NCBI GenBank assembly: GCA_022826515.1
Contig: JAJDUT010000015.1
Coordinates: forward strand, 1 to 15,305
Length of the DNA stretch: 15,305 bases
Origin: Candidatus Latescibacterota bacterium
GTDB lineage: Bacteria > Latescibacterota > UBA2968 > UBA8231
Direction: 5' to 3'
The position numbers and the translations under genes were made by a program. The notes under the pieces are model-generated. The model was given only the letters and a program-made list of their open reading frames with translations. It made no database searches and was not told where the DNA came from. Each line of letters opens with the position of its first letter. The stretch's first letter is position 1. Of this stretch, positions 1-15,305 are shown piece by piece.

Positions 1-3000
1 GCACTCGGCCTCGTCCGGCATCGTAATCTTGGCCGGCGATGGCTTCCATCGAAGTGGTAGCCCACTCGACGACCACCGTATCGGCTAGGGCCTCCGGCAG
101 GCGCACGACGAACCGGGCAATGCCGCCTTCGATGATGGTGACATCGTTGAGCGATACGTCCGGTGGTGGGGGCTGGGGGCCGGGGGGCGTGGGCTGATTG
201 CTACTGCCGCTGCCGTCTTGTTTGGGGCTGTCCTGTTTGGGGCTGTCTTGCTTGGGGCTGTCTTGCTCGGGGCTGTCTTGCTTGGGGCTGTCTTGCTTGG
301 GGCTGTCTTGCTTGGGGTCGTCATTGTCGTTGACGGCCACCGTGGCCAAGCTGTTGGTGTTGGACGATGAGTATCCGTCGCCATTGCGGATCCCCACTGT
401 GATGGAGCCGTGGGCTTCGTCGGTGTTGTCGTCTTGGGTGCTAACGGTCAAGCTGGCGGTGCCGCCGCTGCCAAGAGTTACCTGCCGCGCACCAGTTTCG
501 CCGCTTTCGGCAAAGCTGCCGGTTTGAGCAACGTTCACGTTGACGGTGATGGGAGTCGCCGGTTTGGGCGTGGCGCTGAGGGTGAAGATGGCGACGCCGC
601 CCTCGGTGATGGTGCCACCGCCGGCGATGCTGACCACCGGCGTTTGCGGCGTCGGATCGTCGTCGTCGGCGACGTTGACGGTGGCGGAGCCGTTGGTGCT
701 CGACGGCGAGTATCCGTTGCCGTTGCGGACCGTCGCGGTGATGGTACCGGGGGCCTCATCCGCGTTGTCGTCTTGGGTGCTAACGGTCAAGCTGGCGGAG
801 CCGCCGCTGCCGAGGGGCACCTGTCGCGTGCCGGTCTGTCCGCCGGATGCAAAATTGCCGGTTTGCGCGATGTTCACGGTGACGGTGATAGGAGTCGCCG
901 GTTTGGGGGTGGCGCTGAGGGTGAAGACGGCGACGCCGCCCTCGGTGATGGTGCTACTGCCGTCAATGCTGACCACCGGCGTCGGCGGCTCGTCGTTGTC
1001 GTTTACGGTGACGGTGGCGGAGCCGTGGGTGCCCGACGGCGAATATCCGTTGCCGTTGTCGATCGTCGCGGTGATGGTGCCACTGGGCTCGTCGGTGTTG
1101 TCGTTGACGGTGGCGACGGTGAGGCTGGCGGTGCCGCTGGTGCCGAGGGTCACCTGTCGCGTGCCGGTTTGGCCGTTGGCGGCAAAGTCGCCGGTTTGGA
1201 TGACGTTCACCTCGACGGTGATGGAGGCCGCCGGTTTGGGGGTGGCACTGAGGGTGAACGTGGCGTTGCCGCCCTCGGTGATGGTGCTACCGCCGGCGAT
1301 GCTGACCACCGGCGTTTGTGGCGGCGGCTCGTCGTTGTCGTTGACGCTCACGGTGGCGGAGCCGTGGGTGCTCGACGGCGAGTATTTGTTGCCGTTGCTG
1401 ACTGTCGCGGTGATGGAGCCACTGGCCTCGTCGTTGTTGTCGTTGACGGTGGCGACGGTGAGGCTGGCGGAGCCGCTGGTGCCGAGGGTTACTTGGCGCG
1501 TGCCGGTCTGTCCGCTGGCGGCAAAGTCACCGGTTTGGATGATGTTCACGTTGACGGTGATGCTGGCTATCGGTTTGGGTGTGGCGGTGAGGGTGAACGT
1601 GGCGTTGCCGCCCTCGGTGATGGTGCTACCGCCGGCAATACTGACCACCGGCGTCGGCGGCTCGTCGTTGTCGTTGACGTTGACGGTGGCCGTGTTGGTA
1701 GTGGCTGGCACGTAGTTGCTGCCGGTATTGACCCGAGCGGTGATGGAGCCATTGGGTTCGTCGGTGTTGTCGTCTTGGGTGGCAACCGTCAAGCTGGCCG
1801 AGCCGCCGGTGCCGATGGTCACCTGTTTGGTGCCGGTTTGGCCGCTGGCGGCAAAGCTGCCGGTTTGAGTGACGTTCACGTTGACGGTGATGCTGGCTGG
1901 GGGTTTGGGCGACGCGCTGAGGGTGAAGACGGCGACACCGCCTTCGGTGATGGTGCCGCCGCTGGCGATGCTGACCACCGGCGTCGGCGGCGGTTCGTCG
2001 TCGTCGTTGACGTTGACGGTGGCCGTGTTGTTCGTGGCTGGTACGTAGTTGCTGCCGGTGTTGACCCGTGCGGTGATGGAGCCATTAGCCTCGTCGTTGT
2101 TGTCGTTGACGGTGGTGACCGTGAGGCTGGCGGAGCCGCCGGTGCCGATGGTCACCTGTTTGGTGCCGGTCTGTCCGCTGGTGGCAAAGCTGCCGGTTTG
2201 GGTGACGCTGACGTTGACGGTGATGCTGGCCGGGGGTTTGGGCGATGCGCTGAGGGTGAAGACGGCGACGCCACCTTCGGTGATGGCGCTGCCGCCAGCG
2301 ATACTGACCACCGGCGTCGGTGGCTCGTCGTCGTCGGTGATGGTTAGAGTATGCGTGTTGGCGCTGCCGACTGTGTAGCCGCTGCCATCGGTCAGCGTCA
2401 GCACCACCGTCTCGCTGCTTTCGTCGGCGCTGTCGTCGGTAATCGACACTGGAATGTTCACCGAACTCGCGCCCGACGATACCGAGACCGTGGTGCTGGC
2501 GCTGTAGTCGCTGCCCCGCGTGGCCGTGCCCGACAGCGTGTATTTGACCGTCAGCGCCGCCGAGGCCGCCGCCGACAGGTTCACCTGCACATTGCGCGTG
2601 CCCGACCCTTCACCCGCAGTAGATGACGACGAGGCAAAAGATACCGTTGGATCCGAATTGGGTGGTGGCGGCGGTGGTGGCGGATCAAACGCACCGTCCT
2701 TCCGCCACTGGCGAATTTTTGCTATCAGAGGGTCCCAATTCGGGTTGTTTCTGTACTTGCCTCGTTCATACGGAAGCTGAGCAGGAGCCGGCTCTGGATG
2801 ACTGCTGGCCGACGTGAGGAATTGCGGCCGCGACATCGGCTTACCAGCCACGTGGCCCGTCCATTCTTCTCCGCATCGTATCGTAGCCGAAGCCCAAGGT
2901 GTAGCAGAACCGCTTTCAAACTGAACATACACGGTCCAAACCCTGTCGGCCGAAGCCAGATTCGCCCGATTCGCCGTAGTGACGCTCCTTGCCAACAGGG

Positions 3001-3319
3001 GCTCGGCGTCGTTGGCCAGCTTTCCGTACGCCTCAAAATCGTTCCGATTAAGCCGGAACCCCTTGAACACTCTATTGGGATGCTCCGAATCAACGTACGC
3101 CGGCCAAGTTAGCTGGATCGATTTGTATTCCCAATGAACGGGAGGAGCCGTCTCATGGTCCTCCATGGCCATGAGAAAATAAGGCGCATTCGTTTGTGGA
3201 TTGTTCGTCCAATTACCATTTCTAGGGGAGGAGAATCTCTCGAAATCTGGATCATCGATGCACTTAGCCGCAAAGCTAGGGACACTACTAAAAATGAGGA
3301 ACAACAGCGCGTAAATCAT
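1..3319 (-). CDS. Secreted Calx-beta repeat protein, 3' end outside the window
   Basis: Reading down from the ATG at 3319 the frame stays open to base 1 (1106 codons, no stop), so the C-terminus is missing. The start has a strong AGGAGG eight bases upstream (3328-3333). Residues 1-18 (MIYALLFLIFSSVPSFAA) form a signal peptide, so the product is exported. Residues 19-210 are unrecognised, with two cysteines (C20, C149) and a stretch around 65-148 that is faintly fibronectin-III-like. Eight prolines (213-220) lead to a divergent Calx-beta domain (about 225-335). Six near-identical repeats follow, beginning at residues 338, 449, 559, 672, 783 and 896, each with VSI..GG..ITEGG and ending in a NDNDE-type acidic turn. 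Then come a PKQDS linker (1002-1036), a Pro-rich hinge and the start of another Calx-beta domain with the G.DY motif. Such domains bind Ca2+ in surface and adhesion proteins; a surface or adhesive role is inferred. It is divergent from the ilv-leu operon and has no obvious link to it. Confidence 0.88.
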   Translation of the reverse strand, partial: MIYALLFLIFSSVPSFAAKCIDDPDFERFSSPRNGNWTNNPQTNAPYFLMAMEDHETAPPVHWEYKSIQLTWPAYVDSEHPNRVFKGFRLNRNDFEAYGKLANDAEPLLARSVTTANRANLASADRVWTVYVQFESGSATPWASATIRCGEEWTGHVAGKPMSRPQFLTSASSHPEPAPAQLPYERGKYRNNPNWDPLIAKIRQWRKDGAFDPPPPPPPPNSDPTVSFASSSSTAGEGSGTRNVQVNLSAAASAALTVKYTLSGTATRGSDYSASTTVSVSSGASSVNIPVSITDDSADESSETVVLTLTDGSGYTVGSANTHTLTITDDDEPPTPVVSIAGGSAITEGGVAVFTLSASPKPPASITVNVSVTQTGSFATSGQTGTKQVTIGTGGSASLTVTTVNDNNDEANGSITARVNTGSNYVPATNNTATVNVNDDDEPPPTPVVSIASGGTITEGGVAVFTLSASPKPPASITVNVNVTQTGSFAASGQTGTKQVTIGTGGSASLTVATQDDNTDEPNGSITARVNTGSNYVPATTNTATVNVNDNDEPPTPVVSIAGGSTITEGGNATFTLTATPKPIASITVNVNIIQTGDFAASGQTGTRQVTLGTSGSASLTVATVNDNNDEASGSITATVSNGNKYSPSSTHGSATVSVNDNDEPPPQTPVVSIAGGSTITEGGNATFTLSATPKPAASITVEVNVIQTGDFAANGQTGTRQVTLGTSGTASLTVATVNDNTDEPSGTITATIDNGNGYSPSGTHGSATVTVNDNDEPPTPVVSIDGSSTITEGGVAVFTLSATPKPATPITVTVNIAQTGNFASGGQTGTRQVPLGSGGSASLTVSTQDDNADEAPGTITATVRNGNGYSPSSTNGSATVNVADDDDPTPQTPVVSIAGGGTITEGGVAIFTLSATPKPATPITVNVNVAQTGSFAESGETGARQVTLGSGGTASLTVSTQDDNTDEAHGSITVGIRNGDGYSSSNTNSLATVAVNDNDDPKQDSPKQDSPKQDSPEQDSPKQDSPKQDSPKQDGSGSSNQPTPPGPQPPPPDVSLNDVTIIEGGIARFVVRLPEALADTVVVEWATTSMEAIAGQDYDAGRGRV
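212..316 (-). repeat. 15-bp minisatellite, seven units coding PKQDS
   Basis: Seven back-to-back 15-bp units on the - strand (CCCAAGCAAGACAGC) encode PKQDS; the fourth reads PEQDS and the last PKQDG. It sits between the sixth near-identical repeat and the next Calx-beta domain, followed by a Gly/Ser/Asn and proline-rich stretch. It probably forms a flexible hydrophilic spacer. Because the unit is 15 bp, changes in copy number would keep the reading frame. Confidence 0.9.
319..2308 (-). repeat. Six tandem ~333-bp repeats coding Calx-beta-type domains
   Basis: The codon for V of the VSI motif falls at 2308, 1975, 1645, 1306, 973 and 634, all in one frame, giving unit lengths of 333, 330, 339, 333 and 339 bp. 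Size changes are multiples of three and fall in the Pro/Glu hinge (EPPTP, EPPPTP, EPPPQTP). Every unit has the ITEGG..VFTLSA.PKP block, an N.....QTG.FA..GQTG block and a TDE or NDE turn. Neighbouring units resemble each other closely in DNA, which points to recent duplication or gene conversion. Confidence 0.9.
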
Positions 3320-3464
3320 TGGGGAGTCCTCCTTATTGGGGGATGTTACGTAGCTGCGCCGAACCTGTAGGTGTAGAGGCGGTGTGTAACGTCCGTTCGT
3401 TAGGAATTCAGACCGTACCCATGAGTAACGTTAGTGCTGTAAGGCAATGCGATTTATCGCGCCA

Positions 3465-3495
3465 AGTAGGGGGCGGTTTTCAAACCGCCCCTACT
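3465..3495. repeat. GTAGGGG-CGGTTT palindromic element
   Basis: An almost perfect inverted repeat: AGTAGGGG(G)CGGTTT on the left, AAACCGCCCCTACT on the right, a two-base TC loop, and one extra G in the left arm. No T-run follows on either strand and no gene ends here, so it is not a usual terminator. Short GC-rich hairpins of this look are often dispersed intergenic repeats. Whether this one is repeated elsewhere cannot be seen from the window. Confidence 0.7.
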
Positions 3496-3528
3496 GCGAA
3501 AAAAATGCGGAAAACTAATGTGGGGGTA

Positions 3529-3555
3529 TAAATCGTTGTTTTTTTTAACGATTTA
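3529..3555. repeat. 9-bp perfect inverted repeat with T-rich loop
   Basis: TAAATCGTT at 3529-3537 is exactly mirrored by AACGATTTA at 3547-3555, with the loop GTTTTTTTT between. It could be a hairpin or a dimeric protein-binding site upstream of either divergent gene. No T-tract lies outside the stem, so an intrinsic terminator is unlikely. Confidence 0.55.
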
Positions 3556-3580
3556 CGAAGATATGTGTCGGCAAAACCTC

Positions 3581-3664
3581 GGGGCTGGAAGCAGTTTGAT
3601 AGCGTCGTAGCAGGCTGTGCTAGTGGCAAGGCAAATGTTTGGTCATTTACCATCTTCCAGTCCC
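3581..3664. other. Possible structured RNA or DNA element (three-stem fold)
   Basis: GGGGCTGGAAG (3581-3591) can pair with CTTCCAGTCCC (3654-3664): 11 pairs, one of them G-U on the + strand. The enclosed sequence offers two more hairpins, TAGCA/TGCTA (3608-3612 with 3618-3622) and AAATG/CATTT (3633-3637 with 3644-3648). Together this would be a three-way junction. It lies upstream of the operon promoter, so if transcribed it would belong to another unit. I recognise no known RNA family. The rest of 3320-3794 holds no convincing gene. Confidence 0.3.
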
Positions 3665-3794
3665 TCCGCCGAAGGGCGAAACCGCCGGTTCTGCGTTGAG
3701 GTTATGTAAGGCTATACATTAAAATGGCGTGGATTGTCAAGAAAAATCGACGTTGCATTTTGCGCCGCACTACCTTTGCTTTGCGCCACCTCGC

Positions 3795-3823
3795 TTGACA
3801 TTCCCTCTGGCACGCCATATATT
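3795..3823 (+). promoter_or_regulatory. sigma70-type promoter of the ilv-leu operon
   Basis: TTGACA at 3795-3800 is a perfect -35 box, and TATATT at 3818-3823 follows after exactly 17 bases, one base off the -10 consensus. Transcription would begin near 3830, leaving a leader of about 280 bases before ilvC. That is long enough for the leader peptide and hairpins listed next. The call rests on sequence match and spacing only. Confidence 0.65.
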
Positions 3824-3877
3824 GAAATTTCTATCGCAATTGAAGCTAACTTCTTGGATTACTTAGGGTTAATGACA

Positions 3878-3991
3878 ATGAGCGCGCCGTTCCAGTTCCC
3901 GCGTATTTTCCGCTCGACGCCCGTGTGGGTGCGCCTCCGACTTCTCCTCCTCCTCGACGTACTGCTTATTATTGGCCGACTGGTCAAGTAG
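3878..3991 (+). CDS. Candidate Leu/Val/Ile leader peptide, 37 aa
   Basis: A short ORF lies wholly inside the predicted ilvC leader. Its second half (residues 16-36) reads VWVRLRLLLLLDVLLIIGRL followed by V, so 15 of 21 residues are Leu, Val or Ile, including five leucines in a row (CTT CTC CTC CTC CTC). These are the end products of the operon, as in the ilvL and leuL leader peptides of enterobacteria. The first half (MSAPFQFPRIFRSTP) has no such bias. AGGG at 3865-3868 stands nine bases before this ATG; an ATG at 3872 adds two residues, and the frame is open back to 3734, above the promoter. The expected role is to stall the ribosome when charged branched-chain tRNAs are scarce and so raise expression downstream. 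No hairpin plus T-run terminator is visible after it, so the mechanism may be Rho-dependent or act on ilvC translation. Confidence 0.65.
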   Translation: MSAPFQFPRIFRSTPVWVRLRLLLLLDVLLIIGRLVK

Positions 3992-4056
3992 GCTTCGCTC
4001 CTCGTTCCACTTTTACAGCCCAATTAACGGACGAAGCCGCTGCAAACGCGCCGGCT
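3991..4056 (+). promoter_or_regulatory. Alternative hairpins in the ilvC leader
   Basis: GGCTTCG (3991-3997), starting on the last base of the leader-peptide stop codon, is perfectly complementary to CGAAGCC (4032-4038). The same right arm (AGCCG, 4035-4039) can instead pair with CGGCT (4052-4056). The two stems exclude each other, as expected for an attenuator whose fold depends on ribosome position. A smaller stem TTGGCC/GGTCAA (3972-3977 with 3982-3987) overlaps the end of the peptide. The second stem lacks a T-run. Confidence 0.45.
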
Positions 4057-4100
4057 GTCAGCTAACTATGTCTATCAAACAATCTCAACGCCCTCAGTGA

Positions 4101-4107
4101 AGGAGAA
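4101..4107 (+). promoter_or_regulatory. ilvC ribosome binding site, complementary to leader Leu codons
   Basis: AGGAGAA lies five bases before the ilvC ATG at 4113. It is perfectly complementary over seven bases to TTCTCCT at 3942-3948, inside the leucine codon run of the leader peptide. Such pairing would hide the site unless a ribosome sits on the Leu codons. Confidence 0.5.
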
Positions 4108-4112
4108 TTTTC

Positions 4113-5105
4113 ATGCAGATGTTCTACGACAACGACGCCAATCTCGACCTGCTCTCGGACAAGACCGTGGCCGTCATCGGCTACGGCAGCCAAGGCCACG
4201 CGCATTCGCTCAATTTGGCCGAGAGCGGCGTCAAGGTAGTGGTGGGCTTACGCGCGGGTAGCCAGCGGCGCGCTGAAGCCGAGGCCGAAGGGCTGGAAGT
4301 AGCCGATGTGGCCGAGGCCAGCAAGCGCGGCGACATCGTGGTGATCCTGATCAACGACGAAGTCCAGAAGGCTGTGTACGAAGCCGATATCCGCCCCAAT
4401 CTCGAAGCGGGCAATGCCCTCGCCTTTGCCCACGGGTTTAACATCCACTTTGGGCAGGTAGTGCCGCCGCCGGAGGTCGATGTGTTCATGGTCGCGCCCA
4501 AAGGGCCGGGGCACTTGGTGCGCCGCGTGTACCAGCAGGGAGGTGGCGTGCCGGGCCTGTTGGCCGTGTACCAAGACGCCACCGGCCGAGCGCACGAGAT
4601 CGGCTTGGCTTATGCCAGGGGGATTGGCTGCGGCCGGGCCGGCGTCATTGAGACGACCTTCCGCGAGGAGACAGAGACCGACTTGTTCGGCGAGCAGGTG
4701 GTGCTGTGCGGTGGGTTGACCGAGCTGATCCGCGCGGGGTTTGACACGCTCGTCGAGGCTGGCTACCAGCCCGAGGTCGCTTATTTCGAGTGTCTGCACG
4801 AGGTCAAGCTGATCGTCGATCTGATCTACGAGGGCGGCATCGCCAACATGCGCTCGTCGATTTCGGATACTGCGGAGTTTGGCGACTTGACGCGCGGCCG
4901 CCGGGTGATAACCGAGCAGACGCGGGCGGAAATGAAGCAGATTCTCGCCGACGTGCAGAACGGCCACTTTGCGCGGGAATGGCTGGCCGAAAACCAAGTG
5001 GGCCGCCCGGTGTACAATGCGGTCAAGCGCCGCGATTCCGAGCACTTGATCGAGACCGTTGGCACCCGGCTGCGTGCGATGATGAGTTGGCTGGACGACA
5101 AATAA
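4113..5105 (+). CDS. ilvC: Ketol-acid reductoisomerase
   Basis: 330 aa, the usual length of class I (short) ketol-acid reductoisomerase. It rearranges and reduces 2-acetolactate or 2-aceto-2-hydroxybutyrate to the dihydroxy acids, a step shared by valine, leucine and isoleucine synthesis in the cytoplasm. The Rossmann motif GYGSQG is at 23-28, followed by the cofactor loop LRAGSQRR (46-53). Active-site H107 lies in AFAHGFN, K130 in APKGPGH, and the two Mg2+ sites in [10 protein letters not shown] (D190, E194) and FECLHE (E226, E230). All key residues are present. The ATG at 4113 has the AGGAG site; starting at M3 would also fit the family. It is the first structural gene after the promoter and leader, and 159 bases separate it from leuA. 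Confidence 0.97.
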
Positions 5106-5137
5106 CAAATAGAAAACCTTGAGAGGAGGTAAGCGCG

Positions 5138-5272
5138 ATGGAGCCCCTACTTAGCGAGTTGAGTTCCGACCCCGACCTTAGATCGGTAGGCGGTCTCTGC
5201 ACGGCTGGAGGGGACTGTCTGCCGCTTGTATCACTTCATCCGGCCAGCCTAGGAAAAACACATCATGGCTGA
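5138..5272 (+). CDS. Possible 44-aa upstream ORF coupled to leuA
   Basis: Directly after GAGAGGAGGT, the best ribosome binding site in the window, an ATG at 5138 opens a 44-codon frame (begins MEPLLSELSSDPDLRS, ends SLGKTHHG). It stops at TGA 5270-5272, eight bases into leuA in another frame. About a fifth of its residues are leucine, but without a run. leuA itself has only a weak AGGA 10 bases before its ATG, so re-initiation after this ORF could drive leuA. It may be a second regulatory leader. I recognise no homologue, and it could be chance. Confidence 0.4.
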   Translation: MEPLLSELSSDPDLRSVGGLCTAGGDCLPLVSLHPASLGKTHHG

Positions 5273-6800
5273 TGCAAATCGCGTATATATTTTCGACACC
5301 ACGCTGCGGGATGCCGAGCAAACGCCCGGTGCCTCGCTGACGGCTAGAGAGAAGCTGGAAATCGCCCATCAGTTAGCGCGGCTGAAGGTCGATATTATCG
5401 AGGCCGGCTTTCCAGTGTCCTCCAACGAGGACTTTGAGGCCGTGCGCCGCATTGGGCAGGAAGTCGAAGGGCCGGTAATCTGTGGGTTGGCCCGCGCCGT
5501 GCCCAAGGACGTTGAGCGAGCGGGCGCGGCTCTCCAAGGCGCATCTCGGCCGCGGATCCACACCTTTATCGGCACATCGGATATTCAACTCGCGGGCCAA
5601 TTGCGCAAGGACCGGGATGAGGTGCTGAAGATGGCGGTGGAGTCAGTGGAGCAGGCCAAGTCGTACTGTGACGATGTCGAGTTCTCGCCCTTGGACGCCA
5701 CGCGCACGGAGCCTAGCTACCTCTACGAGATCATCGCGGCGACGATCGCGGCGGGGGCGACGACGATCAATATCCCCGACACGGTCGGCTATGCCGTGCC
5801 CGAAGAATTTGGGGAGATGATCGCGCGGATTATCGCCGAAGTGCCGAATAGTGGAGACGCCATCATCAGCGTCCATTGCCACGACGATCTGGGCATGGCG
5901 GTACCCAATACCCTCACAGCGATCAAAAAAGGCGCACGCCAAGCCGAATGCACGATCAACGGCTTGGGAGAGCGGGCCGGCAATACTTCGCTGGAGGAGA
6001 TCGTCATGGCGCTAAAGACGCGCCAGAACTACTTCGGCTTTGATACGGAAGTGGTCACCGAGGAAATCGTCTCCACCAGCCGGCTAGTTAGCCGCTTGAT
6101 GGGCATCGCGGTCCAGCCCAACAAGGCGATCGTCGGTGCCAACGCCTTTGCCCATAGCTCGGGCATCCACCAGGACGGCGTACTCAAGCAGCGCGACACT
6201 TTTGAGATCATGGATCCGAAAGATGTAGGGCTGGAGGCTACCGAGATCGTGCTGACGGCGCGCTCGGGACGCGCGGCGCTGCGCCATCGGCTGGAGGTCT
6301 TGGGCTACGAGTTGAACAAAGAGGAACTGGACAAGGTGTACGAGGACTTCGTCGCGTTGGCCGACAAGAAGAAGGAGGTCTTCGACGAGGACCTGATTGA
6401 AATCGTCGGTGGCTCGGACGAGACGACCGCTTACTACGAGCTCCAGTACCTGCATTCGGTCAGTGGCACTGGCACGGTGCCTTCGGCCACAGTGCGGATG
6501 CGCATTGGCGACGAGATCGTGCAGCAGTCGTCTTGGGGTGCGGGACCGGTGGATGCGGCGTATGCGGCCATTGGCTTGGCCTGCGGCACCGAGGTCCGGC
6601 TCGACGACTACGCCATCCGCGCCATCACCTCCGGCCGACAGGCGTTGGGCGAGGTAACGGTGCATCTGTCGAAAAACGGCGAGCAGGCGCGGGGCCGAGG
6701 CGTTTCAACCGACGTTATCGAGGCGAGTGCGCGGGCGTATGTGGATGCGCTGAACCGCTTGACCGCAAAGAACGCTAAAGAACAGCATCAGACCGTGTAG
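5265..6800 (+). CDS. leuA: 2-isopropylmalate synthase
   Basis: 511 aa, matching the standard LeuA with a C-terminal regulatory domain. It condenses acetyl-CoA with 2-oxoisovalerate, the first step committed to leucine. The TIM barrel (about 5-275) shows the HMG-CoA-lyase-like signature TLRDAEQTPGAS with R15 and D16, SVHCHDDLG with metal ligands H204 and H206, and NGLGERAGNTSLEE. GANAFAHSSGIHQDG (291-305) lies in the linker. The C-terminal LeuA dimer domain (about 385-500) normally binds leucine for feedback inhibition. One oddity is Ala in the signature where most LeuA have Gly (LRDGEQ). The start is weakly served by its own ribosome site and overlaps a short upstream ORF. leuC follows after 12 bases. 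Confidence 0.95.
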   Translation: MADANRVYIFDTTLRDAEQTPGASLTAREKLEIAHQLARLKVDIIEAGFPVSSNEDFEAVRRIGQEVEGPVICGLARAVPKDVERAGAALQGASRPRIHTFIGTSDIQLAGQLRKDRDEVLKMAVESVEQAKSYCDDVEFSPLDATRTEPSYLYEIIAATIAAGATTINIPDTVGYAVPEEFGEMIARIIAEVPNSGDAIISVHCHDDLGMAVPNTLTAIKKGARQAECTINGLGERAGNTSLEEIVMALKTRQNYFGFDTEVVTEEIVSTSRLVSRLMGIAVQPNKAIVGANAFAHSSGIHQDGVLKQRDTFEIMDPKDVGLEATEIVLTARSGRAALRHRLEVLGYELNKEELDKVYEDFVALADKKKEVFDEDLIEIVGGSDETTAYYELQYLHSVSGTGTVPSATVRMRIGDEIVQQSSWGAGPVDAAYAAIGLACGTEVRLDDYAIRAITSGRQALGEVTVHLSKNGEQARGRGVSTDVIEASARAYVDALNRLTAKNAKEQHQTV

Positions 6801-6812
6801 AGGAGATTGGAG

Positions 6813-8210
6813 ATGGGTAAAACCCTGTTGCACAAGGTTTGGGACGCGCACACCGTGCGCGAGTTGCCCTCGGGGCAGACGCAGTTGTTCGTTGGCCTGC
6901 ATTTGGTTCACGAGGTGACCAGCCCCCAGGCCTTTGAGATGCTGCGGGAGCGCGGCCTTACGGTCCGCTTTCCACAGCGCACGTTTGCCACCGTAGATCA
7001 CATCGTGCCCACAGACTTGGTGCAGCGGCCTTTTGTCGATGACTTGGCCGAGGAGATGATGGATGCGATTGAGCAGAATGCCGCCGAGTTCGAGATCCCG
7101 CTGTTCAACATCGACGACCAGCGCCAAGGGGTAGTCCACGTCATCGGCCCGGAATTGGGGCTGACTCAGCCGGGCATGACCATTGCCTGCGGCGATAGCC
7201 ACACTTCGACGCACGGGGCTTTTGGCGCGGTGGCCTTTGGCATTGGTACGAGCCAAGTGCGCGACGTGCTCGCCACTCAGTGCTTGGCCATGGACCCGCT
7301 CAAGGTACGGCGGATTGAGGTCAGCGGCGCGCTGAGCGAGGGGGTGTACGCCAAGGACATCATCTTGCACATTATCGGCCTGCTCGGGGTCAATGGCGGC
7401 GTTGGTTTCGGCTATGAGTACGGCGGTTCAGTCATTGAGGCCATGTCCATTGAAGAGCGGATGACAGTGTGCAACATGTCGATTGAGGGCGGTGCCCGGG
7501 TCGGGTACGTCAATCCCGACCAGACGACGTACGACTATCTCAATGGGCGATCTCATGCGCCGCGCAACTTTGAGTCTGCGGTCGAGTGGTGGGAGTCCAT
7601 GGCCTCGGACGCCGACGCCGAGTACGACGACCTAGTCCAAATCGACGGCCGCGAGATCGGCCCGACCGTGACGTGGGGCATTACGCCGGGCCAATCGGTC
7701 GGCGTTGACCAGGATTTGCCCGATTTGGATGCTTTTGCCGACGCCGATCGTTCCACTGTTCAAGAAGCCTTCGATTACATGGATTTTGAGCCAGGGCAGC
7801 AGATCGCCGGGACCAAAGTAGATGTGGCGTTTATCGGCTCTTGTACTAACGGTCGGCTCTCGGATCTGCGCGAGGCGGCCCGAGTCGCTCGCGGGCGCAA
7901 GGTCGCTCCCGGCGTCCGCGCTCTCGTGGTGCCTGGGTCGCAACAGGTGCGGGCCGCAGCCGAGGCCGAGGGTTTGCACGAGATCTTTGCGGAAGCCGGG
8001 TTCCAGTGGCGAGGGGCGGGTTGCTCCATGTGCTTGGCGATGAACCCCGACAAACTGCAAGGGCGCGAGCTATGTGCTTCGTCGTCCAACCGCAATTTCA
8101 AGGGCCGGCAGGGCAGTCCTACCGGTCGCACCCTGCTGATGAGTCCAGCGATGGTCGCCGCGGCGGCGGTGGCGGGTGAGGTGGCGGATGTGCGGGAGTT
8201 GGTGGGGTAG
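6813..8210 (+). CDS. leuC: 3-isopropylmalate dehydratase large subunit
   Basis: 465 aa, full length for the bacterial LeuC type. With LeuD it isomerises 2-isopropylmalate to 3-isopropylmalate. It should also act on citramalate, giving beta-methylmalate on the isoleucine route. The [4Fe-4S] ligands are C344 (GSCTNGR) and C404 with C407 (GCSMCLAMN). Other aconitase-family blocks are [15 protein letters not shown] (125-139) and [11 protein letters not shown] (426-436). The ATG at 6813 has AGGAG seven bases upstream; an in-frame TTG at 6807 is less likely because the ribosome site would overlap it. It lies 12 bases after leuA and 13 before leuD, so the genes are co-transcribed. Confidence 0.96.
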
Positions 8211-8223
8211 AGGAGGAGACACC

Positions 8224-8817
8224 ATGGAAAATTCGAGTGTGATTCAGACTATAGCCGGCCGCGGCGTGGTGGTGCGCGGGGCTGATATTGATACCGACCG
8301 CATTATTCCGGCTCGTTTTTTGCGGACGGTGACCTTTGAGAATTTGGGTGCCCATGCCTTTGAGGACGATCGCGCCGGTGGAGACCATCCCTTTGACCAA
8401 GCGCGCTTCCAAGGAGCGTCGGTCCTGTTGGCCAACGCCAATTTCGGCTGTGGGTCCTCACGCGAACACGCGCCGCAGGCCCTGATGCGCTGGGGGATCA
8501 AGGGCTTTGTCGCCGAGTCCTTTGCCGAGATTTTCTTTGGCAACTGCATCGCCATGGGATTGCCCTGTGTGCGAGTGGCGGCTGGGGACATGCAGGCGTT
8601 GATGGACGCGGTCGAGAGCGATTCGGCGCAGGAGGTGGCCATCGATCTCGAAGCGCGGCAGGTGCGCTGGGCCGGCGGCCAAGTTGCAGCCGATATTGCC
8701 GATGGCCCGCGCGAGCAGTTTCTCAAGGGAAGTTGGGACTCGCTAGGCCAGCTTTTGGCCGCTGGCGACCAGATTGAGAGCACCACGCGGAAGCTGCCGT
8801 ACGTGGCGGGGTTCTGA
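8224..8817 (+). CDS. leuD: 3-isopropylmalate dehydratase small subunit
   Basis: 197 aa, the normal size. It supplies the swivelling domain of the isopropylmalate isomerase; the motif ANFGCGSSREHAP (72-84) binds the substrate carboxylates. DIDTDRIIPARFL near the N-terminus is also typical. The ATG at 8224 follows AGGAGG (8211-8216) and fits the family start; frames further upstream overlap leuC and are not needed. The next gene begins 13 bases on, but it is not leuB as would be expected: two unrelated small genes intervene. Confidence 0.96.
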   Translation: MENSSVIQTIAGRGVVVRGADIDTDRIIPARFLRTVTFENLGAHAFEDDRAGGDHPFDQARFQGASVLLANANFGCGSSREHAPQALMRWGIKGFVAESFAEIFFGNCIAMGLPCVRVAAGDMQALMDAVESDSAQEVAIDLEARQVRWAGGQVAADIADGPREQFLKGSWDSLGQLLAAGDQIESTTRKLPYVAGF

Positions 8818-8830
8818 AAGAGGTGATAAG

Positions 8831-9082
8831 ATGGGACGTTCCAACTGGACGAAAGCCGATTCGATCAAGGCAAAGCAAATTTGGGCGCAATACCAACGGC
8901 AGTACAATGTTGCCGATCGAGTCGGGCAGACCGTGGGAATTGATCCTAGAAGCGGACAGATTTGGTTTGGGGAATCGATTCGAGATATTGTTTTGCAAAG
9001 AGATGCTGAAGATATGCAGTCACCCCTTTTCTTTGAACGGGTCGGCTCTGAAACATATCTCCTCAAGGGATGTAGGCAGTGA
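8831..9082 (+). CDS. Conserved-type hypothetical protein, partner of the aspartic protease
   Basis: 83 aa, start ATG at 8831 behind a near-ideal site (AGAGGTGAT). The sequence has an amphipathic first half (KADSIKAKQIWAQYQRQY), a central VGIDPRSGQIWFGES block and a C-terminal PLFFERVGSETYLLKG strand. No catalytic motif, signal or membrane segment is seen. From memory, small proteins with a G-IDP-SG-WFG block occur next to DTG proteases in other bacteria, but no function is known to me. Its stop overlaps the next gene by four bases (GTGA), so the two are translated together. Composition is clearly more A+T-rich than leuD and leuB, suggesting acquisition as a pair. It may be an antitoxin-like or substrate partner; this is only a guess. 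Confidence 0.75.
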   Translation: MGRSNWTKADSIKAKQIWAQYQRQYNVADRVGQTVGIDPRSGQIWFGESIRDIVLQRDAEDMQSPLFFERVGSETYLLKGCRQ

Positions 9083-9453
9083 TTCGAGGCACTGTTTCAT
9101 CTATCGGTGTACCCACGGTTACACTGCCGATCGTTGGCCAAAATTGGGCTGCCACTATTGACACAGGCTTCAATGGTGACTTGGAATTGCCAGAAGACAT
9201 ACGCGATTCGTTAAACGCCCGGTACGTTGGCCGGATGACTTCTGCTTTGGCTGGTGGTCAAGTTATTGATGAAGATGCCTACTTGGTTAGTTTTCCGTTT
9301 GATGGTCAGATCATTCAAGCAGAAACAACTTTCGTTTCTGGGACCCAAATCCTCATAGGGACACGTTTGCTAAGAGAGTATCGTTTGGAGATCAATTTTG
9401 TGAGTAGAATCGTTGAATTGGTGAAATCAGAAACCATATCCAACGATGGATGA
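9079..9453 (+). CDS. Retropepsin-like aspartic protease, clan AA DTGF type
   Basis: 124 aa from a GTG at 9079, which overlaps the preceding stop. The stretch ATIDTGFNGDLELPE holds the catalytic D28-T29-G30 followed by Phe, as in the small clan AA family described for AF_0612-like proteins. The second conserved block, ILIGTRLLREYRLEINF near the C-terminus, matches the I-L-G....L strand of retropepsins. At this length it carries one active-site Asp and would work as a homodimer. There is no signal peptide, so it is cytoplasmic. The biological substrate is unknown. Placed between leuD and leuB in A+T-richer DNA, it looks like an inserted two-gene module, not part of leucine synthesis. leuB follows after 23 bases. 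Confidence 0.8.
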   Translation: MIRGTVSSIGVPTVTLPIVGQNWAATIDTGFNGDLELPEDIRDSLNARYVGRMTSALAGGQVIDEDAYLVSFPFDGQIIQAETTFVSGTQILIGTRLLREYRLEINFVSRIVELVKSETISNDG

Positions 9454-9476
9454 ACCTTAACATGGGAGATAAGTAA

Positions 9477-10535
9477 TTGCACAAAATCGCCGTAATACCC
9501 GGAGACGGAACAGGGCCTGAAGTGGTGGTCGAGGGTTTGAAAGCACTCGACGCTGTAGCCGCTAAGCAGGGATTCAAATACGAAACTGTGGATTTTGACT
9601 TTGGCGGCGACCGCTATTTGCGCACCGGCGAGGTCTTGCCCGAGTCGGCGGCCGACGACTTTAGGCAGTTCGATGCCATCTATCTAGGGGCCATCGGCCA
9701 CCCCGACGTGAAGCCGGGTATCCTCGAAAAAGGCATTCTACTGAGGCTGCGCTTTGAGTTGGACCAGTACATCAATCTTCGCCCGGTCAAGCTCTATCCC
9801 AACGTGCCGACGCCGATCAAGGACAAAGGGCCGGAGGATATCGATTTCGTGGTGGTGCGGGAAAACACTGAGGGACTGTACGCGGGTTCTGGCGGCTTTC
9901 TCAAAAAGGGCACGCCAGACGAGATCGCAGTGCAGGAATCTATCAACACTCGCAAAGGCGTCGAGCGCTGCTTGCGCTACGCCTTTGAGTACACCCAGCG
10001 GCGCAACAAGGACAACACCTTGACGCTGTGCGGCAAGACCAACGTGCTGACGTATGCCTTCGACTTGTGGGAGCGGGTGTTTGAGGAAATCGGCGCGGCC
10101 GACTATCCGACCATCAAGCGCGACTACGCCCACGTCGATGCTATCTGCATGTGGATGGTTAAAAATCCCGAGTGGTTCGACGTGGTAGTTACCGACAACA
10201 TGTTCGGCGACATCATCACGGATTTGGGCGCGATGATCCAGGGTGGGATGGGCATTGCCGCGGGTGGCAATATCAATCCCGAAGGCGTGTCGATGTTCGA
10301 GCCGATCGGCGGCTCGGCCCCCAAGTACACCGGCCAGAATATCATCAATCCTATGGCTGCCATCGGTGCCTGTCAGCTCATGCTCGACACGCTCGGCGAG
10401 CACGAGGGTGCCGACATTTTGGAGGGCGCTATCGTCTCGACGCTGACCAAGCTCGACGATATGGGCGCGGGTAGGATGGGGTATTCGACGGCGGAAGTAG
10501 GCGACTTAGTAGCCCAGGCTGTGGCCGACGCCTAG
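9477..10535 (+). CDS. leuB: 3-isopropylmalate dehydrogenase-type enzyme
   Basis: 352 aa, matching the isocitrate/isopropylmalate dehydrogenase family. It should oxidise and decarboxylate 3-isopropylmalate, and beta-methylmalate from citramalate, to the 2-oxo acids. Substrate and catalytic groups are R90, R92, R102, R128, the ENTEGLYAG loop, K187, and D221, D245 and D249 in the [14 protein letters not shown] region. The loop GILLRLR resembles that of isopropylmalate dehydrogenases and not the serine loop of isocitrate dehydrogenase. The cofactor region reads [18 protein letters not shown]: Lys283-Tyr284 occupy the place of the NAD-specific Asp-Ile of classical LeuB and recall the NADP-binding Lys-Tyr of E. 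coli isocitrate dehydrogenase. The start is TTG with GGGAGAT eight bases upstream; the ATG at 9462 meets a stop after four codons. A tartrate or malate dehydrogenase is possible, but context favours LeuB. Confidence 0.88.
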
Positions 10536-10557
10536 GACGATGGAGGGAAGCGACACC

Positions 10558-12153
10558 ATGCGCATCGAAGTCTATGACTCCACCCTGCGAGACGGCGCTC
10601 AAGCCGAGGGCATTTCCTATTCGCTAGAGGACAAGCTGCTGATCGCGCGGCGGCTCGACGCGCTGGGGGTCGATTACATTGAGGGAGGTTGGCCGAACCC
10701 GACCAATCCCAAGGACTTGGCTTTTTTCCAAGAGGCGAAAAAGCTCGGGTTACAGGCGAAAGTAACCGCTTTCGGCAGTACCCGGCGGGCGACCAACGCA
10801 CCGGAGGAAGACGAGACCTTGCAGACGCTGCTTAAGGCCGAGACCGAGAGCATCGCCCTCTTCGGCAAGAGCTGGACCTTGCACGCGACTGAAATCTTGC
10901 GCACCACGCTAGCGGGCAATGTGCAGTTGATCGAGGATTCGGTCGCCTATCTGGTCGCGCACGGTCGCGAAGTGATCTACGATGCCGAGCACTTTTTCGA
11001 CGGCTATAAGGCCGACGCCAGTTACGCGATTGAGACGCTATTGGCCGCCGAGCGCGGTGGGGCACGGATTTTGGTGCTCTGCGATACTAATGGCGGTACC
11101 CTGACCAGCGAGATGAGTCAGATCGTCGAGGAGGTCAAGGCACGGATCGGGATTCCCTTTGGCATCCACACGCACAACGATGCTGGCGTGGGCGTGGCCA
11201 ATACCCTCGTGGCGGTGGAGCGGGGCGCGGTGCAAGTGCAAGGGACCTTCAACGGCTATGGCGAGCGCTGCGGCAACGCCAACTTGTGCGCCATTCTGCC
11301 CAACTTAGAACTGAAGATGGGTTTCGAGACAGTGGGCCGCGACAACCTTGCGGAACTGATGGACTTCTCCCGCTTCCTCAGCGAGATCGCCAACGTCTAT
11401 CACGACCACCGACAGCCTTATGTCGGTGAGAGCGCATTCGCCCACAAGGGCGGAGCACATGTCGATGGAGTGATGAAGGTCGCCCACTCGTTTGAGCACA
11501 TCGAGCCGGAGCGGGTGGGTAACGAGCGGCGGTTCTTGGTCTCGGACCAAGCGGGCGGCGCCACGGTCGTCAGCAAGCTGCGGCGATTTTTGCCCGACAT
11601 AGAGAAGCGGGATCCGCTGGTGGGACGGGTCTTGGAGCGGGTCAAGCAGTTGGAGCACGAGGGCTATCAGTTTGAGGCGGCGGAGGGGTCGTTTGAGTTG
11701 TTGGCGCGGCGGGTTCAGGGCACGTACGAGGACTTATTTACGCTGATCAACTTCCGCACCATCAACCGCAGGATCGGGGAGCACGCCGAAGAAGCCGAGG
11801 CCATTGTCAGGATCGTCATCGGCGATGCCGAGTACCATATGGTCGCTGGCGGCGATGGGCCGGTCAATGCGCTCGATCAAGCACTGCGCAAGGCGCTGGA
11901 GCAGGAGTTTCCCGCACTCAAGCAGGTGCATTTGGAGGACTACAAGGTGCGGGTGTTGTCGAGCAGCGACGGGACCGCGGCCAAGACGCGGGTATTGATC
12001 GAGTCGTCGGACGGCAAGGATGTGTGGGGTACGGTGGGGGTTTCGGAGAATGTGATTGAGGCGAGTTGGATCGCGCTGGCCGATAGTTTGCACTACAAAT
12101 TGATGAAGGATGCGCTGGCCGAGCTAGCGGTCGGCGCGACGGGAACGGATTGA
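10558..12153 (+). CDS. cimA: (R)-citramalate synthase
   Basis: 531 aa, the usual CimA size. It condenses pyruvate with acetyl-CoA to (R)-citramalate, the threonine-independent entry to isoleucine. Diagnostic blocks are STLRDGAQAEGISYS (8-22), GGWPNPTNPKD (43-53), HTHNDAGVGVANT (204-216), NGYGERCGNANL (232-243) and FAHKGGAHVDG (294-304). The GGWP and AEGISYS forms separate it from LeuA. The C-terminal third carries the LeuA-type regulatory domain, expected to sense isoleucine. The ATG at 10558 has GGAGG 11 bases upstream; a start at 10540 has no room for a site. LeuC, LeuD and LeuB upstream complete the route to 2-oxobutyrate. The last 12 codons, stop included, are duplicated before argJ. Confidence 0.95.
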   Translation: MRIEVYDSTLRDGAQAEGISYSLEDKLLIARRLDALGVDYIEGGWPNPTNPKDLAFFQEAKKLGLQAKVTAFGSTRRATNAPEEDETLQTLLKAETESIALFGKSWTLHATEILRTTLAGNVQLIEDSVAYLVAHGREVIYDAEHFFDGYKADASYAIETLLAAERGGARILVLCDTNGGTLTSEMSQIVEEVKARIGIPFGIHTHNDAGVGVANTLVAVERGAVQVQGTFNGYGERCGNANLCAILPNLELKMGFETVGRDNLAELMDFSRFLSEIANVYHDHRQPYVGESAFAHKGGAHVDGVMKVAHSFEHIEPERVGNERRFLVSDQAGGATVVSKLRRFLPDIEKRDPLVGRVLERVKQLEHEGYQFEAAEGSFELLARRVQGTYEDLFTLINFRTINRRIGEHAEEAEAIVRIVIGDAEYHMVAGGDGPVNALDQALRKALEQEFPALKQVHLEDYKVRVLSSSDGTAAKTRVLIESSDGKDVWGTVGVSENVIEASWIALADSLHYKLMKDALAELAVGATGTD

Positions 12154-12158
12154 GTGCT
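12118..12158 (+). repeat. 41-bp direct repeat, copy A (cimA end)
   Basis: This stretch is identical base for base to 12733-12773. It covers the codons for ELAVGATGTD, the cimA stop and five spacer bases. The match ends exactly where the toxin-antitoxin segment begins. Confidence 0.97.
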
Positions 12159-12177
12159 CAAATCAAGGAGCAAGACA

Positions 12178-12402
12178 ATGACCTCTGAAAAAGTTGCCGA
12201 TTTAACAGTTGATGAGTTTAGAGCACTTGTTCAGGAGATTGTTGTACACACGCTCTCAGAAATGCTGGGCGATCCTGATGAAGGAGCGGAATTGCGCGAA
12301 GACTTCGCCGAGGAACTTCGGTCCGCCCTTGTCGCTGTAGAAGGCGATAGCGAAACCGTACCTGCCCATAAAGTCGCTAAACGACTAGGGCTGACTTGGT
12401 GA
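12178..12402 (+). CDS. Antitoxin-like partner of the RelE/ParE toxin
   Basis: 74 aa, ATG at 12178 behind AAGGAG. It is acidic and mostly helical in appearance (LTVDEFRALVQEIVVHTLSE, then DPDEGAELREDFAEELRSAL), ending in VPAHKVAKRLGLTW. This pattern is typical of short antitoxins encoded just upstream of RelE-like toxins; I see no clear DNA-binding fold. Its stop and the toxin start share one base (TGATG), so translation is coupled. Composition is more A+T-rich than cimA and argJ. Expected role: bind and neutralise the toxin, and perhaps repress its own expression. Confidence 0.75.
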   Translation: MTSEKVADLTVDEFRALVQEIVVHTLSEMLGDPDEGAELREDFAEELRSALVAVEGDSETVPAHKVAKRLGLTW

Positions 12403-12665
12403 TGTACCATGTAGAATTCACACCCAATGCCGAAGCAGATTTAACTAAGTTGGAGGCTTCAGTAGCACAGCGCGTACTCAACAGATTGCGTTGGTTAGCT
12501 GAGAACTTTGAGTCAATTAGGATCGAAGCACTTACAGGACGATTTTCGGGTGTATTCAAATTGCGCGTCGGCGATTATCGCGTTCTCTATATTTGTGACC
12601 GGACAGAAAAGAAGATAATTGTTCAGTTTGTTAAGCATCGGCGCGAAGTGTACGAAAAGAACTAA
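12402..12665 (+). CDS. RelE/ParE-superfamily toxin
   Basis: 87 aa. The order FTPNAEADLTKL, a helix (VAQRVLNRLRWLAENF), then KLRVGDYRVLY and FVKHRREVYEK is the hallmark of RelE/ParE-type type II toxins. Basic residues K53, R55 and R60, H79-R80 and Y84 lie where RelE enzymes cut ribosome-bound mRNA; whether it cleaves RNA or targets gyrase (ParE-like) cannot be told. I place the start at ATG 12402 overlapping the antitoxin stop; an in-frame TTG at 12396 would add two residues. The pair lies between cimA and argJ, bounded by a 41-bp repeat, and is plainly inserted. Confidence 0.88.
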   Translation: MYHVEFTPNAEADLTKLEASVAQRVLNRLRWLAENFESIRIEALTGRFSGVFKLRVGDYRVLYICDRTEKKIIVQFVKHRREVYEKN

Positions 12666-12690
12666 AAAAGAAGCGACAGGAGTGAAGATA

Positions 12691-12768
12691 TTGGACGACG
12701 GCAACATTTGTTCCACGAAAAGGTTTCAAGCCGCCGAGCTAGCGGTCGGCGCGACGGGAACGGATTGA
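12691..12768 (+). CDS. Possible 25-codon mini-ORF ending in the duplicated cimA tail
   Basis: AGGAG at 12678-12682 stands eight bases before TTG 12691. The frame reads DDGNICSTKRFQA and then runs into AELAVGATGTD, the same frame as the true cimA end, stopping at TGA 12766-12768, five bases before argJ. Translation of this ORF would restore the stop-start arrangement argJ had before the insertion. It may be chance; no function is claimed for the peptide. Confidence 0.35.
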   Translation: MDDGNICSTKRFQAAELAVGATGTD

Positions 12769-12773
12769 GTGCT
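12733..12773 (+). repeat. 41-bp direct repeat, copy B (before argJ)
   Basis: Perfect copy of 12118-12158, 615 bp downstream. It ends directly at the argJ ATG. The junction cimA-stop, GTGCT, ATG found here is most simply the ancestral cimA-argJ junction. Confidence 0.97.
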
Positions 12774-13967
12774 ATGAGGATTATCGAGGGTGGCGGGGTC
12801 ACTGCGCCGCGTGGGTACCGGGCGGGCGGCATTCAGACGGGTGTTAAGGAATCGGGCGCTAAGGACTTGGCGCTGGTGTATTCGACGCGCCCGGCCAATG
12901 CCGCTGCGGTGTACACCACCAATAAGGTGCAGGGTGCGCCGATTGCCATCGACCGCGAGCATCTCGCCGATGGCAAGGCGCGGGCCGTCATTCTCAACAG
13001 CGGCAACGCCAATGTCTGCAACGGCGACGTCGGTTTGGATCACGCCCGGCGGATGTGCGCCTTGACGGCGAGTGAGTTGGGTCTGCAAACGGAAGAAGTG
13101 CTGGTCTGCTCCACCGGCTTGATCGGCGTACCGCTGCCGATTGCCAATATAGAAGCGGGCATCCCGCGGATTGTCGCGGCGTTGTCCGAGGAAGGCGGAG
13201 CGACTGCCGCTGAGGCGATCATGACTACGGACACTGTGCCGAAGAGCTGTGCCGTTGAGGTCGAGTTGGAATCGGGCCGCGCCGTAGTTGGGGCGATGGC
13301 CAAAGGAGCGGCGATGATCGCCCCCAACATGGCGACGATGCTGGCAGTGGTGACCACGGACGCGGCTGTGCCCAGCGGCCCATTGCAGGAACTGCTGTCG
13401 CAGGCCATCCAGCGCACGTTTAACTGCATCACGGTTGACGGCGACATGAGTACGAGCGACACGGTGATCCTGATGGCCAATGGCGACGGCGCGGAGCTAG
13501 GCGAAGGCGATTGCGCGCGCCTCTACGAGGGCATTGAGTACGCGTGTCGGCAGATGGCCCAGGCGATCGCGCGCGACGCCGAGGGATCGTCCAAGCTGAT
13601 TACCATAGCGGTGCGTGGGGCCGCTACTGAAGCGGAGGCGAGGCAAGTCGGCATTGCGGTGGCTAATTCGAGCTTGGTGAAGACCGCGGCATTCGGCAAC
13701 GACCCCAACTGGGGACGCATTCTGTGCGCGATGGGGTACGCTGGCGTCGAGTTTGATCCCGAGAGGGCGTGCGTGTCGCTGTGCGGCACGGACATTTACG
13801 GCAACGGCGCGGGTCTCGATTTCGACGGGGATAAGCTGAGCGCGGCCATGCAGATGGAGGAAATGACCATTGATATCGATTTGGCGATGGGCGAGGCCGC
13901 GGCTGAAATTTTTACCTGCGATCTGACGTACGAGTACGTGCGCCTGAACGCCGAATACACTACCTGA
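12774..13967 (+). CDS. argJ: Glutamate N-acetyltransferase (ornithine acetyltransferase)
   Basis: 397 aa, the usual ArgJ length. It transfers the acetyl group from N-acetylornithine to glutamate (and, in bifunctional forms, makes acetylglutamate from acetyl-CoA) in arginine synthesis. The self-cleavage motif reads KGAAMIAPNMATML; cutting between A187 and T188 gives the alpha and beta chains, with T188 the nucleophile. Other family blocks are AVILNSGNANVCNG (71-84), FNCITVDGDMSTSDT, FGNDPNWGRI and the C-terminal RLNAEYTT. The start is the ATG directly after repeat copy B. No good ribosome site precedes it, which suggests translation coupled to an upstream stop (originally cimA). A TTG at 12708 is in frame but would add 22 residues foreign to the family. 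aspC follows after six bases. Confidence 0.95.
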   Translation: MRIIEGGGVTAPRGYRAGGIQTGVKESGAKDLALVYSTRPANAAAVYTTNKVQGAPIAIDREHLADGKARAVILNSGNANVCNGDVGLDHARRMCALTASELGLQTEEVLVCSTGLIGVPLPIANIEAGIPRIVAALSEEGGATAAEAIMTTDTVPKSCAVEVELESGRAVVGAMAKGAAMIAPNMATMLAVVTTDAAVPSGPLQELLSQAIQRTFNCITVDGDMSTSDTVILMANGDGAELGEGDCARLYEGIEYACRQMAQAIARDAEGSSKLITIAVRGAATEAEARQVGIAVANSSLVKTAAFGNDPNWGRILCAMGYAGVEFDPERACVSLCGTDIYGNGAGLDFDGDKLSAAMQMEEMTIDIDLAMGEAAAEIFTCDLTYEYVRLNAEYTT

Positions 13968-13973
13968 GGAACT

Positions 13974-15164: not shown

Positions 15165-15218
15165 GAATGGCTTTGGTGCATGAATCGGTGTTTTTTTGGG
15201 TAGCTCGGTTGAATAAAA

Positions 15219-15287
15219 ACAGGCTCCTCAGTAGATTGAGCACGACTTTCGCCAAAAAACCCATGCTTTCTCGTCCAAGGAACCTGT
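15219..15287 (+). repeat. Inverted repeat around the start of the last gene
   Basis: ACAGGCTCCT (15219-15228) and AGGAACCTGT (15278-15287) are reverse complements with one mismatch. A second pair, TTTTTTGG (15192-15199) with CCAAAAAA (15252-15259), overlaps it. The right arm contains the AGGAA ribosome site of the gene starting at 15289, so a transcript reading through from aspC could fold over it. Confidence 0.5.
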
Positions 15288-15288
15288 C

Positions 15289-15305
15289 ATGGCCAACCTA
15301 TCGTC
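15289..15305 (+). CDS. Possible start of another gene, cut by the window edge
   Basis: ATG at 15289 has AGGAA six bases upstream and opens MANLS before the sequence ends. A start whose ribosome site lies in an inverted repeat would suit a transposase gene protected from read-in, but five codons cannot identify it. Confidence 0.3.

Follow-up and report, generated by a model that had tools for sequence, protein, structure and literature searches.

In a Candidatus Latescibacterota genome, we found a Leu- and Ile-rich leader ORF upstream of ilvC, which is followed by three RNA strands, S1, S2 and S3, and which very likely acts as a ribosome-mediated attenuator for the branched-chain amino acid (BCAA) operon, with charged tRNA-Leu and tRNA-Ile as the signals sensed. 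The window, that is the whole stretch of DNA analysed, comprises 15,305 nucleotides (contig JAJDUT010000015.1, positions 1 to 15,305 of the forward strand). At the level of sequence, comparison with relatives shows the biased codons, two exclusive helices, the covariation of these helices and the link to BCAA operons. We propose that a ribosome would translate the leader during synthesis of the downstream RNA. In the presence of ample Leu and Ile, the ribosome at the UAG stop codon would cover S1, S2:S3 would form and the operon would be off. During Leu/Ile shortage, the ribosome would be expected to stall on the Leu/Ile codons, leaving S1 free to form the stronger S1:S2 helix, by which S3 would be released and the operon turned on. 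S2:S3 is presumed to be the off state because the homologous hairpin in a related genome, G036, carries a U8 terminator. As a lead only, the read-out in the window's family (f1) might be premature transcription termination at or after S2:S3 with the help of Rho.

The leader ORF and its conservation

The original prediction described a 37-codon ORF between a near-consensus promoter and ilvC, and its sequence, its position and the promoter match are all as claimed (Table 1). Transcription is expected to start near position 3830, and visual inspection revealed a similar promoter in seven or more relatives (L084, L086, L088, L089, L098, L099 and L101). The leader ORF has a further in-frame ATG at 3872, missing from L088, L089 and L090, and 121 bases separate the ORF from ilvC. 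Re-reading of the sequence also confirmed that 15 of the leader residues 16-36 are Leu, Val or Ile, including five consecutive Leu codons (residues 22-26). With 15 Leu/Ile/Val in 21 residues, the leader frame tops the 216 short ORFs (15-60 codons) of the window, followed by a repeat-derived frame with 14 in 21 residues. Counted over its last 20 codons, the leader contains 14 Leu/Ile/Val. No short open frame reached this number in 400 kb sampled from G005 (0/7692) or in a sample of G028 (0/7739), whereas 0.18% and 0.013% of the 20-codon windows of long frames did in G005 and G028, respectively.

A Pfam search of the two small ORFs located within the operon (8774-9453, plus strand) gave no matches; by eye, the second of them resembles a retropepsin-type protease. 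Divergent from the ilvC operon, an open-ended minus-strand frame of at least 1106 residues covers positions 2-3319 and contains six 333-base tandem repeats with TITEGG...TFTLSA-like units as well as a 15-base repeat (DSPKQ) at 215-317. This repeat-bearing frame accounts for the long plus-strand ORFs at 2-3319, which are spurious.

Table 1. Features of the ilvC leader region and operon in the window
Feature	Position	Strand	Remarks
Sigma-70-like promoter, TTGACA-17-TATATT	3795..3823	+	11/12 consensus matches
Leader ORF, 37 codons	3878..3991	+	Stop codon TAG at 3989-3991
Leu/Ile/Val codon block, 15/21 codons	3923..3985	+	Probable ribosome stalling site
Strand S1 (AGGCUUCG-c-UCC)	3990..4001	+	Starts inside leader stop codon
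S1-S2 loop, C-rich, G-poor	4001..4028	+	Possible Rho loading site
Strand S2 (GGACGAAGCCG)	4029..4039	+	GAAGCC pairs with S1, AGCCG with S3
S2:S3 hairpin, AGCCG-c-UGC-AAAC-GCG-c-CGGCU	4035..4056	+	Without U-tract; homologue of the G036 U8 terminator hairpin
NUG, conserved, 12 bases 3' of GGC; possible 10-codon mini-ORF (MSIKQSQRPQ)	4068..4100	+	Suggestive only
SD-like AGGAGA before ilvC	4101-4106	+	
ilvC, ketol-acid reductoisomerase	4113..5105	+	
Rest of operon	5265..12153	+	Gene names from Pfam domains and general family knowledge, also for the genes below
leuA	start 5265	+	
leuC	start 6807	+	
leuD	start 8176	+	
Two small ORFs	starts 8774 and 9079	+	Between leuD and leuB-like gene
leuB-like	start 9477	+	
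leuA/cimA-like	start 10540	+	

A search for ilvC in 60 relatives gave a match in 57, and we read 44 upstream regions in 14 genera belonging to the same class, consisting of an f1 set of 24 (the window, 22 ilvC loci and one leuA locus) and 20 ilvN loci of the groups f2-f4. Two of the 25 f1 genomes lie outside this reading, namely G003, which was matched by the model R1 described below, and G006, in which neither ilvC nor the motif was found. Genome G001 has 36% of sampled words in common with the window and is 95% identical to it over positions 3700-5105. Among 120 of 544 matching ilvC proteins, five had an assigned organism: four belonged to Candidatus Latescibacterota or Latescibacteria (85-89% identity) and one to Gemmatimonadaceae. 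A Leu/Ile-rich leader was present in all 44 regions, with a mean of 11.75 Leu/Ile/Val per last 20 leader codons, compared to 1.3 and 3.3 when the same stretch is read in the two other frames. The original prediction had asked whether the biased codons are kept while the peptide start drifts. This is what we observed: leader length and N-terminal part drift among the relatives, the last 20 codons contain between 7 and 15 Leu/Ile/Val codons, and neither the ORF nor its bias is lost in any of the 44 regions. Averaged by genus over the 14 genera, the last 20 residues consist of 39% Leu, 14% Ile and 4.5% Val, and Phe, Met, Trp, Tyr and Cys together account for 3.2%. Judged from this composition, Leu and Ile are the conserved signal and valine is not. 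The claim that the peptide contains all three amino acids therefore describes the window sequence but does not extend to the 14 genera, as Val is absent from the last 20 residues in 4 of the 14 genus representatives. Among the ilvC upstream regions of 80 distant loci, 16 short frames had at least 7 Leu/Ile/Val in 12 residues, the best of which, L020, had 9.

Two alternative helices and their distribution

S1 starts inside the leader stop codon in f1 and genus g15, and at most about 12 bases from the first base of the stop codon in the other genera. It is separated from S2 by about 30 bases, or about 50 bases in f4, and S3 lies close behind S2. As the S2 bases AGCC are used in both helices, S1:S2 and S2:S3 are mutually exclusive. 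For S1:S2, 7 cells were changed on both sides in 23 f1 sequences, all in one pair, and 14 cells in 3 pairs were changed on both sides in 20 class-wide sequences; none of 500 shuffles reached either cell count, bearing in mind that related sequences can beat covariation shuffles even without structure. Counted by pairs instead of cells, two-sided changes in S1:S2 did not exceed those of the shuffles, of which 477/500 reached the one pair in f1 and 296/500 the three pairs class-wide. In an alignment-free genus swap test, cognate S1:S2 combinations had an energy of -20.4 kcal/mol versus -16.0 kcal/mol for foreign ones, and none of 5000 permutations was as good. S2:S3 contained 13 changed cells (0/500 shuffles as high) and, class-wide, 4 pairs changed on both sides (6/500 shuffles) and 11 further pair types (1/500); its genus swap result was equalled by 57 of 5000 permutations.

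The S1:S2 duplex was stronger than S2:S3 in all 44 sequences. When the RNA from the stop codon to S3 was folded freely, S1:S2 was seen in 42/44 sequences (counted by eye), and S2:S3 took its place in L178 and L188. Masking of the first 12 bases, which mimics a ribosome at the stop codon, led to S2:S3 in the five folds inspected (window, L092, L097, L170 and L179). The local minimum-energy hairpin of f4 is not S2:S3; this group thus fits the scheme only in part, and S2:S3 pairing in f4 is doubtful. In genus g9 of f3 (L179-L187 and L189), GUUGUC on the 3' side of S3 is complementary to GACAAC within the S1-S2 loop; this pairing would lengthen the S2:S3 hairpin and is visible in the masked fold of L179. 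Two further pairings were rejected due to absent covariation, namely a 3:4 helix (AGGC with GYCU) and an outer GAC:GUC extension of S2:S3, although 85.5% of the cells of the latter were paired. The stability of the complete window leader is unremarkable (z +1.28), so that structure in the single sequence provides no evidence and the comparison does. The ORF and the two covarying, exclusive helices fit the anatomy of a three-strand ribosome-mediated attenuator as far as sequence comparison can tell, which is doubtful in f4.

We searched for the element with two models, R1, which was built on f1 only, and the class-wide model R2. R1 matched 24/25 f1 genomes and, outside f1, G028 (E 3.9e-4) and two weak others. 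Of its extra matches L136, L138 and L139, the first two were discarded since they are coding sequence by eye. At E<1e-7, R2 matched 40 of the 64 genomes of the phylum with one strong copy each (f1 24/25, f2 1/1, f3 15/15, f4 0/6, outside the class 0/17); since many of the matched sequences are in the models, these counts are a census and not an independent test. Across the 64 genomes there were four weak extra R2 matches, among them those in G020:C150 and G060. R2 matched four f4 loci, which are not part of the model, weakly but at the expected position (E 0.0045 to 0.058), and gave no match in ten ilvN loci outside the class (L190-L199), in which the end of an ilvB-like gene lies upstream by eye. 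R1 gave no matches in 18 of 80 named distant genomes, which shows little because R1 also missed most f3 members. At gathering score, Rfam models (T-box, leader and riboswitch models) had no matches in the window and 13 related loci.

The gene directly after the element is ilvC in f1, leuA in G014 and ilvN in f2-f4. It accompanies the BCAA operon whichever of these genes comes first. In G014 (L135, around 1490-1602, minus strand), the leader is flanked by leuA and a divergent ilvC-like gene with 40% identity, and its position beside leuA indicates that the element went with this gene. Compared to the ilvC product of the window, those of G036 and G046 are 76-77% identical, and those of most f2-f4 genomes (G026-G035 and others) 31-36% identical with frames of about 500 residues, pointing to two reductoisomerase types in one class. 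A second copy of the element before ilvB-ilvN in f1 was rejected, as R2 had no matches in 18 such regions; ilvB was located in 16 of the 18, in one of these with no more than 29 bases of preceding sequence. Just upstream of ilvB, L207, L208 and L215 contain short frames whose last 20 codons include 10-11 Leu/Ile/Val. These have a TTG or an upstream GTG start, have no sequence in common and lack the S1-S2-S3 element. Matches to the S2:S3 pattern outside the known places were also set aside: 12 of the 14 loci were inspected and none was leader-like except L146.

Output of the proposed switch and alternative explanations

The original prediction stated that no standard terminator follows the leader. 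This is the case for the window and its family, but in G036, of the sister genus g10, U8 follows the same S2:S3 hairpin, resulting in a canonical intrinsic terminator. No terminator-like sites were found in positions 3600-4300 of the window (mean of 0.7 in shuffles). The 10 bases after S3 contain 3 T in the window, 1-3 T in 23 of the 24 f1 tails, where L103 has 5 and the L088 tail is mis-anchored, 4-5 T in g9 and 7 T in G036. The hairpin with U-tract of a classical intrinsic-terminator attenuator is therefore missing in the window and was seen only in G036. Canonical terminators are sparse in the samples of G005 and G028, as indicated by the low number of gene ends with a hairpin and at least 5 T of 8 (8/122 in G005, shuffled 5; 16/198 in G028, shuffled 7). 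A rho gene scored above the cut-off in 38/40 genomes. Over the 14 genera, the S1-S2 loop has a C content of 0.36 and a G content of 0.11, compared to an excess of C over G close to 0 in upstream-region windows of 28 bases; Rho might load there, and C-rich loops may merely be unstructured. Our preferred output for the window's family is termination without a U-tract or with Rho, to which a translational relay may be added.

Such a relay, on its own, would use the same sensor: a mini-ORF starting at an NUG codon would run to the ribosome binding site (RBS) of the first gene, and S2:S3 would hinder initiation of the mini-ORF and, by coupling, that of the operon. An NUG 12 bases after a GGY at S3 is found in 21/24 f1 and 11/11 g9 sequences. 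The mini-ORF stops 15 bases before ilvC in the window, and in L103 the NUG frame has 75 codons and stops at -19. In 10/16 representatives, with f4 left out, the stop codon of the frame falls between -25 and +15 relative to the first gene, where 4.5 are expected, a nominal P of 0.0012 that is only indicative because the range and start were chosen post hoc and the sequences are related. However, L179 is among these hits without power (expected 1.0), the relay fails in g3, g4, g5 and g11, and in g8 and g13 the frame extends into the gene. The spacing from AGG to NUG is about 13 bases, which is long for a Shine-Dalgarno (SD) sequence, and the U8 of G036 speaks for a transcriptional output. We therefore consider the relay as sole output unlikely, though worth keeping in mind. 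A transcriptional pause at UNUG seems unlikely, as its spacing deviates from the pause consensus.

Much less probable is a translational mechanism in which the run of Leu codons base-pairs with the first gene's SD. The segment CUUCUCC was paired with the ilvC SD in one fold, and CUC and CUU account for 75% of the leader Leu codons in genus g1 versus 34% in long frames of G005, a baseline that includes some wrong frames. A stem between a Leu run and the SD has been described for leuA of Actinobacteria (PMC1262725). Nevertheless, co-adaptation of run and SD is absent here (cognate -12.7, foreign -13.1 kcal/mol; 3845/5000 permutations as good), and the distance from the stop codon to the first gene varies between 94 and 315 bases in the 44 regions, which also argues against this pairing. 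The C-terminal half of the leader peptide is hydrophobic, as would be expected for a functional small membrane peptide to which the hairpins are unrelated, but the hydrophobic residues are almost only Leu and Ile, with the low share of Phe, Met, Trp, Tyr and Cys given above, and the stop codon is tied to S1 while length and N-terminus drift, making this explanation highly improbable. That the biased frame arose by chance in a C-rich upstream region would agree with the ordinary stability of the whole leader, but is contradicted by its conservation in all 44 regions of 14 genera and by the covarying helices, so that we give it next to no weight.

Returning to the attenuator reading, we tentatively suggest, as one possible scenario, that the f1 attenuator without a U-tract passes its decision to Rho loading on the S1-S2 loop and/or to an NUG mini-ORF bridge to the RBS of the first gene, and that g10 kept or regained the intrinsic-terminator version. 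One class would then show both outputs of one homologous leader-peptide switch.

Relation to known attenuators

Proteobacteria and Actinobacteria are known to use leader-peptide attenuators for their BCAA genes. The enterobacterial ilvL and leuL leaders encode peptides rich in the regulated amino acids, in which they resemble the leader described here, but they are four-strand attenuators with U-tract terminators. The proposal of leader-peptide attenuation after the model of ilvL and leuL is supported in its principle by the alternative covarying hairpins, which had not been noticed in the original prediction, whereas the closer analogues are the three-strand ilvB leaders. A three-hairpin model has reportedly been described for the C. 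glutamicum leader.

The Mycobacterium tuberculosis ilvB1 attenuator also combines a BCAA-rich uORF with two exclusive hairpins, and a ribosome at the stop codon is proposed to mask the antiterminator strand, which is the same logic as suggested here (PMC13236596). It differs in that it precedes ilvB1NC and has a Rho-independent terminator with a U-tract (PMC13236596), whereas our element is followed by ilvC, ilvN or leuA and lacks the U-tract in the window's family. The Corynebacterium ilvB-II motif and the ilvB-OMG and ilvB motifs likewise consist of an RNA motif and a BCAA-rich uORF before a BCAA gene (PMC10272879). Our element has no Rfam match, and Rfam may hold only some of these motifs. 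Mycobacterial cys operon leaders are amino-acid-biased leaders without an obvious terminator for which Rho was proposed, but conserved hairpins were not found there (PMC1262725), unlike the two covarying alternative helices described here. Similarly, the actinobacterial LEU element places a Leu-rich uORF before a leucine gene, and its Leu run may pair with the SD (PMC1262725), a pairing without co-adaptation in our sequences.

Since leader-peptide attenuators and terminator-less leaders have already been described, the element is a new variant of a known attenuation principle and not a new mechanism. A 2010 report states that until the Firmicutes histidine leaders presented there, no such attenuators had been shown outside Proteobacteria and Actinobacteria (PMC2965389), and we found no report of such a leader in the present lineage in the open-licence literature. 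If our interpretation is correct, ribosome-operated amino acid attenuation would extend to this lineage, with an RNA element outside Rfam. The leaders would also constitute a natural series, in which one homologous switch carries U8 in a single genus but lacks it in the relatives, making the change of output directly testable. In addition, the motif would be searchable and could be used for marking BCAA operons in these genomes.
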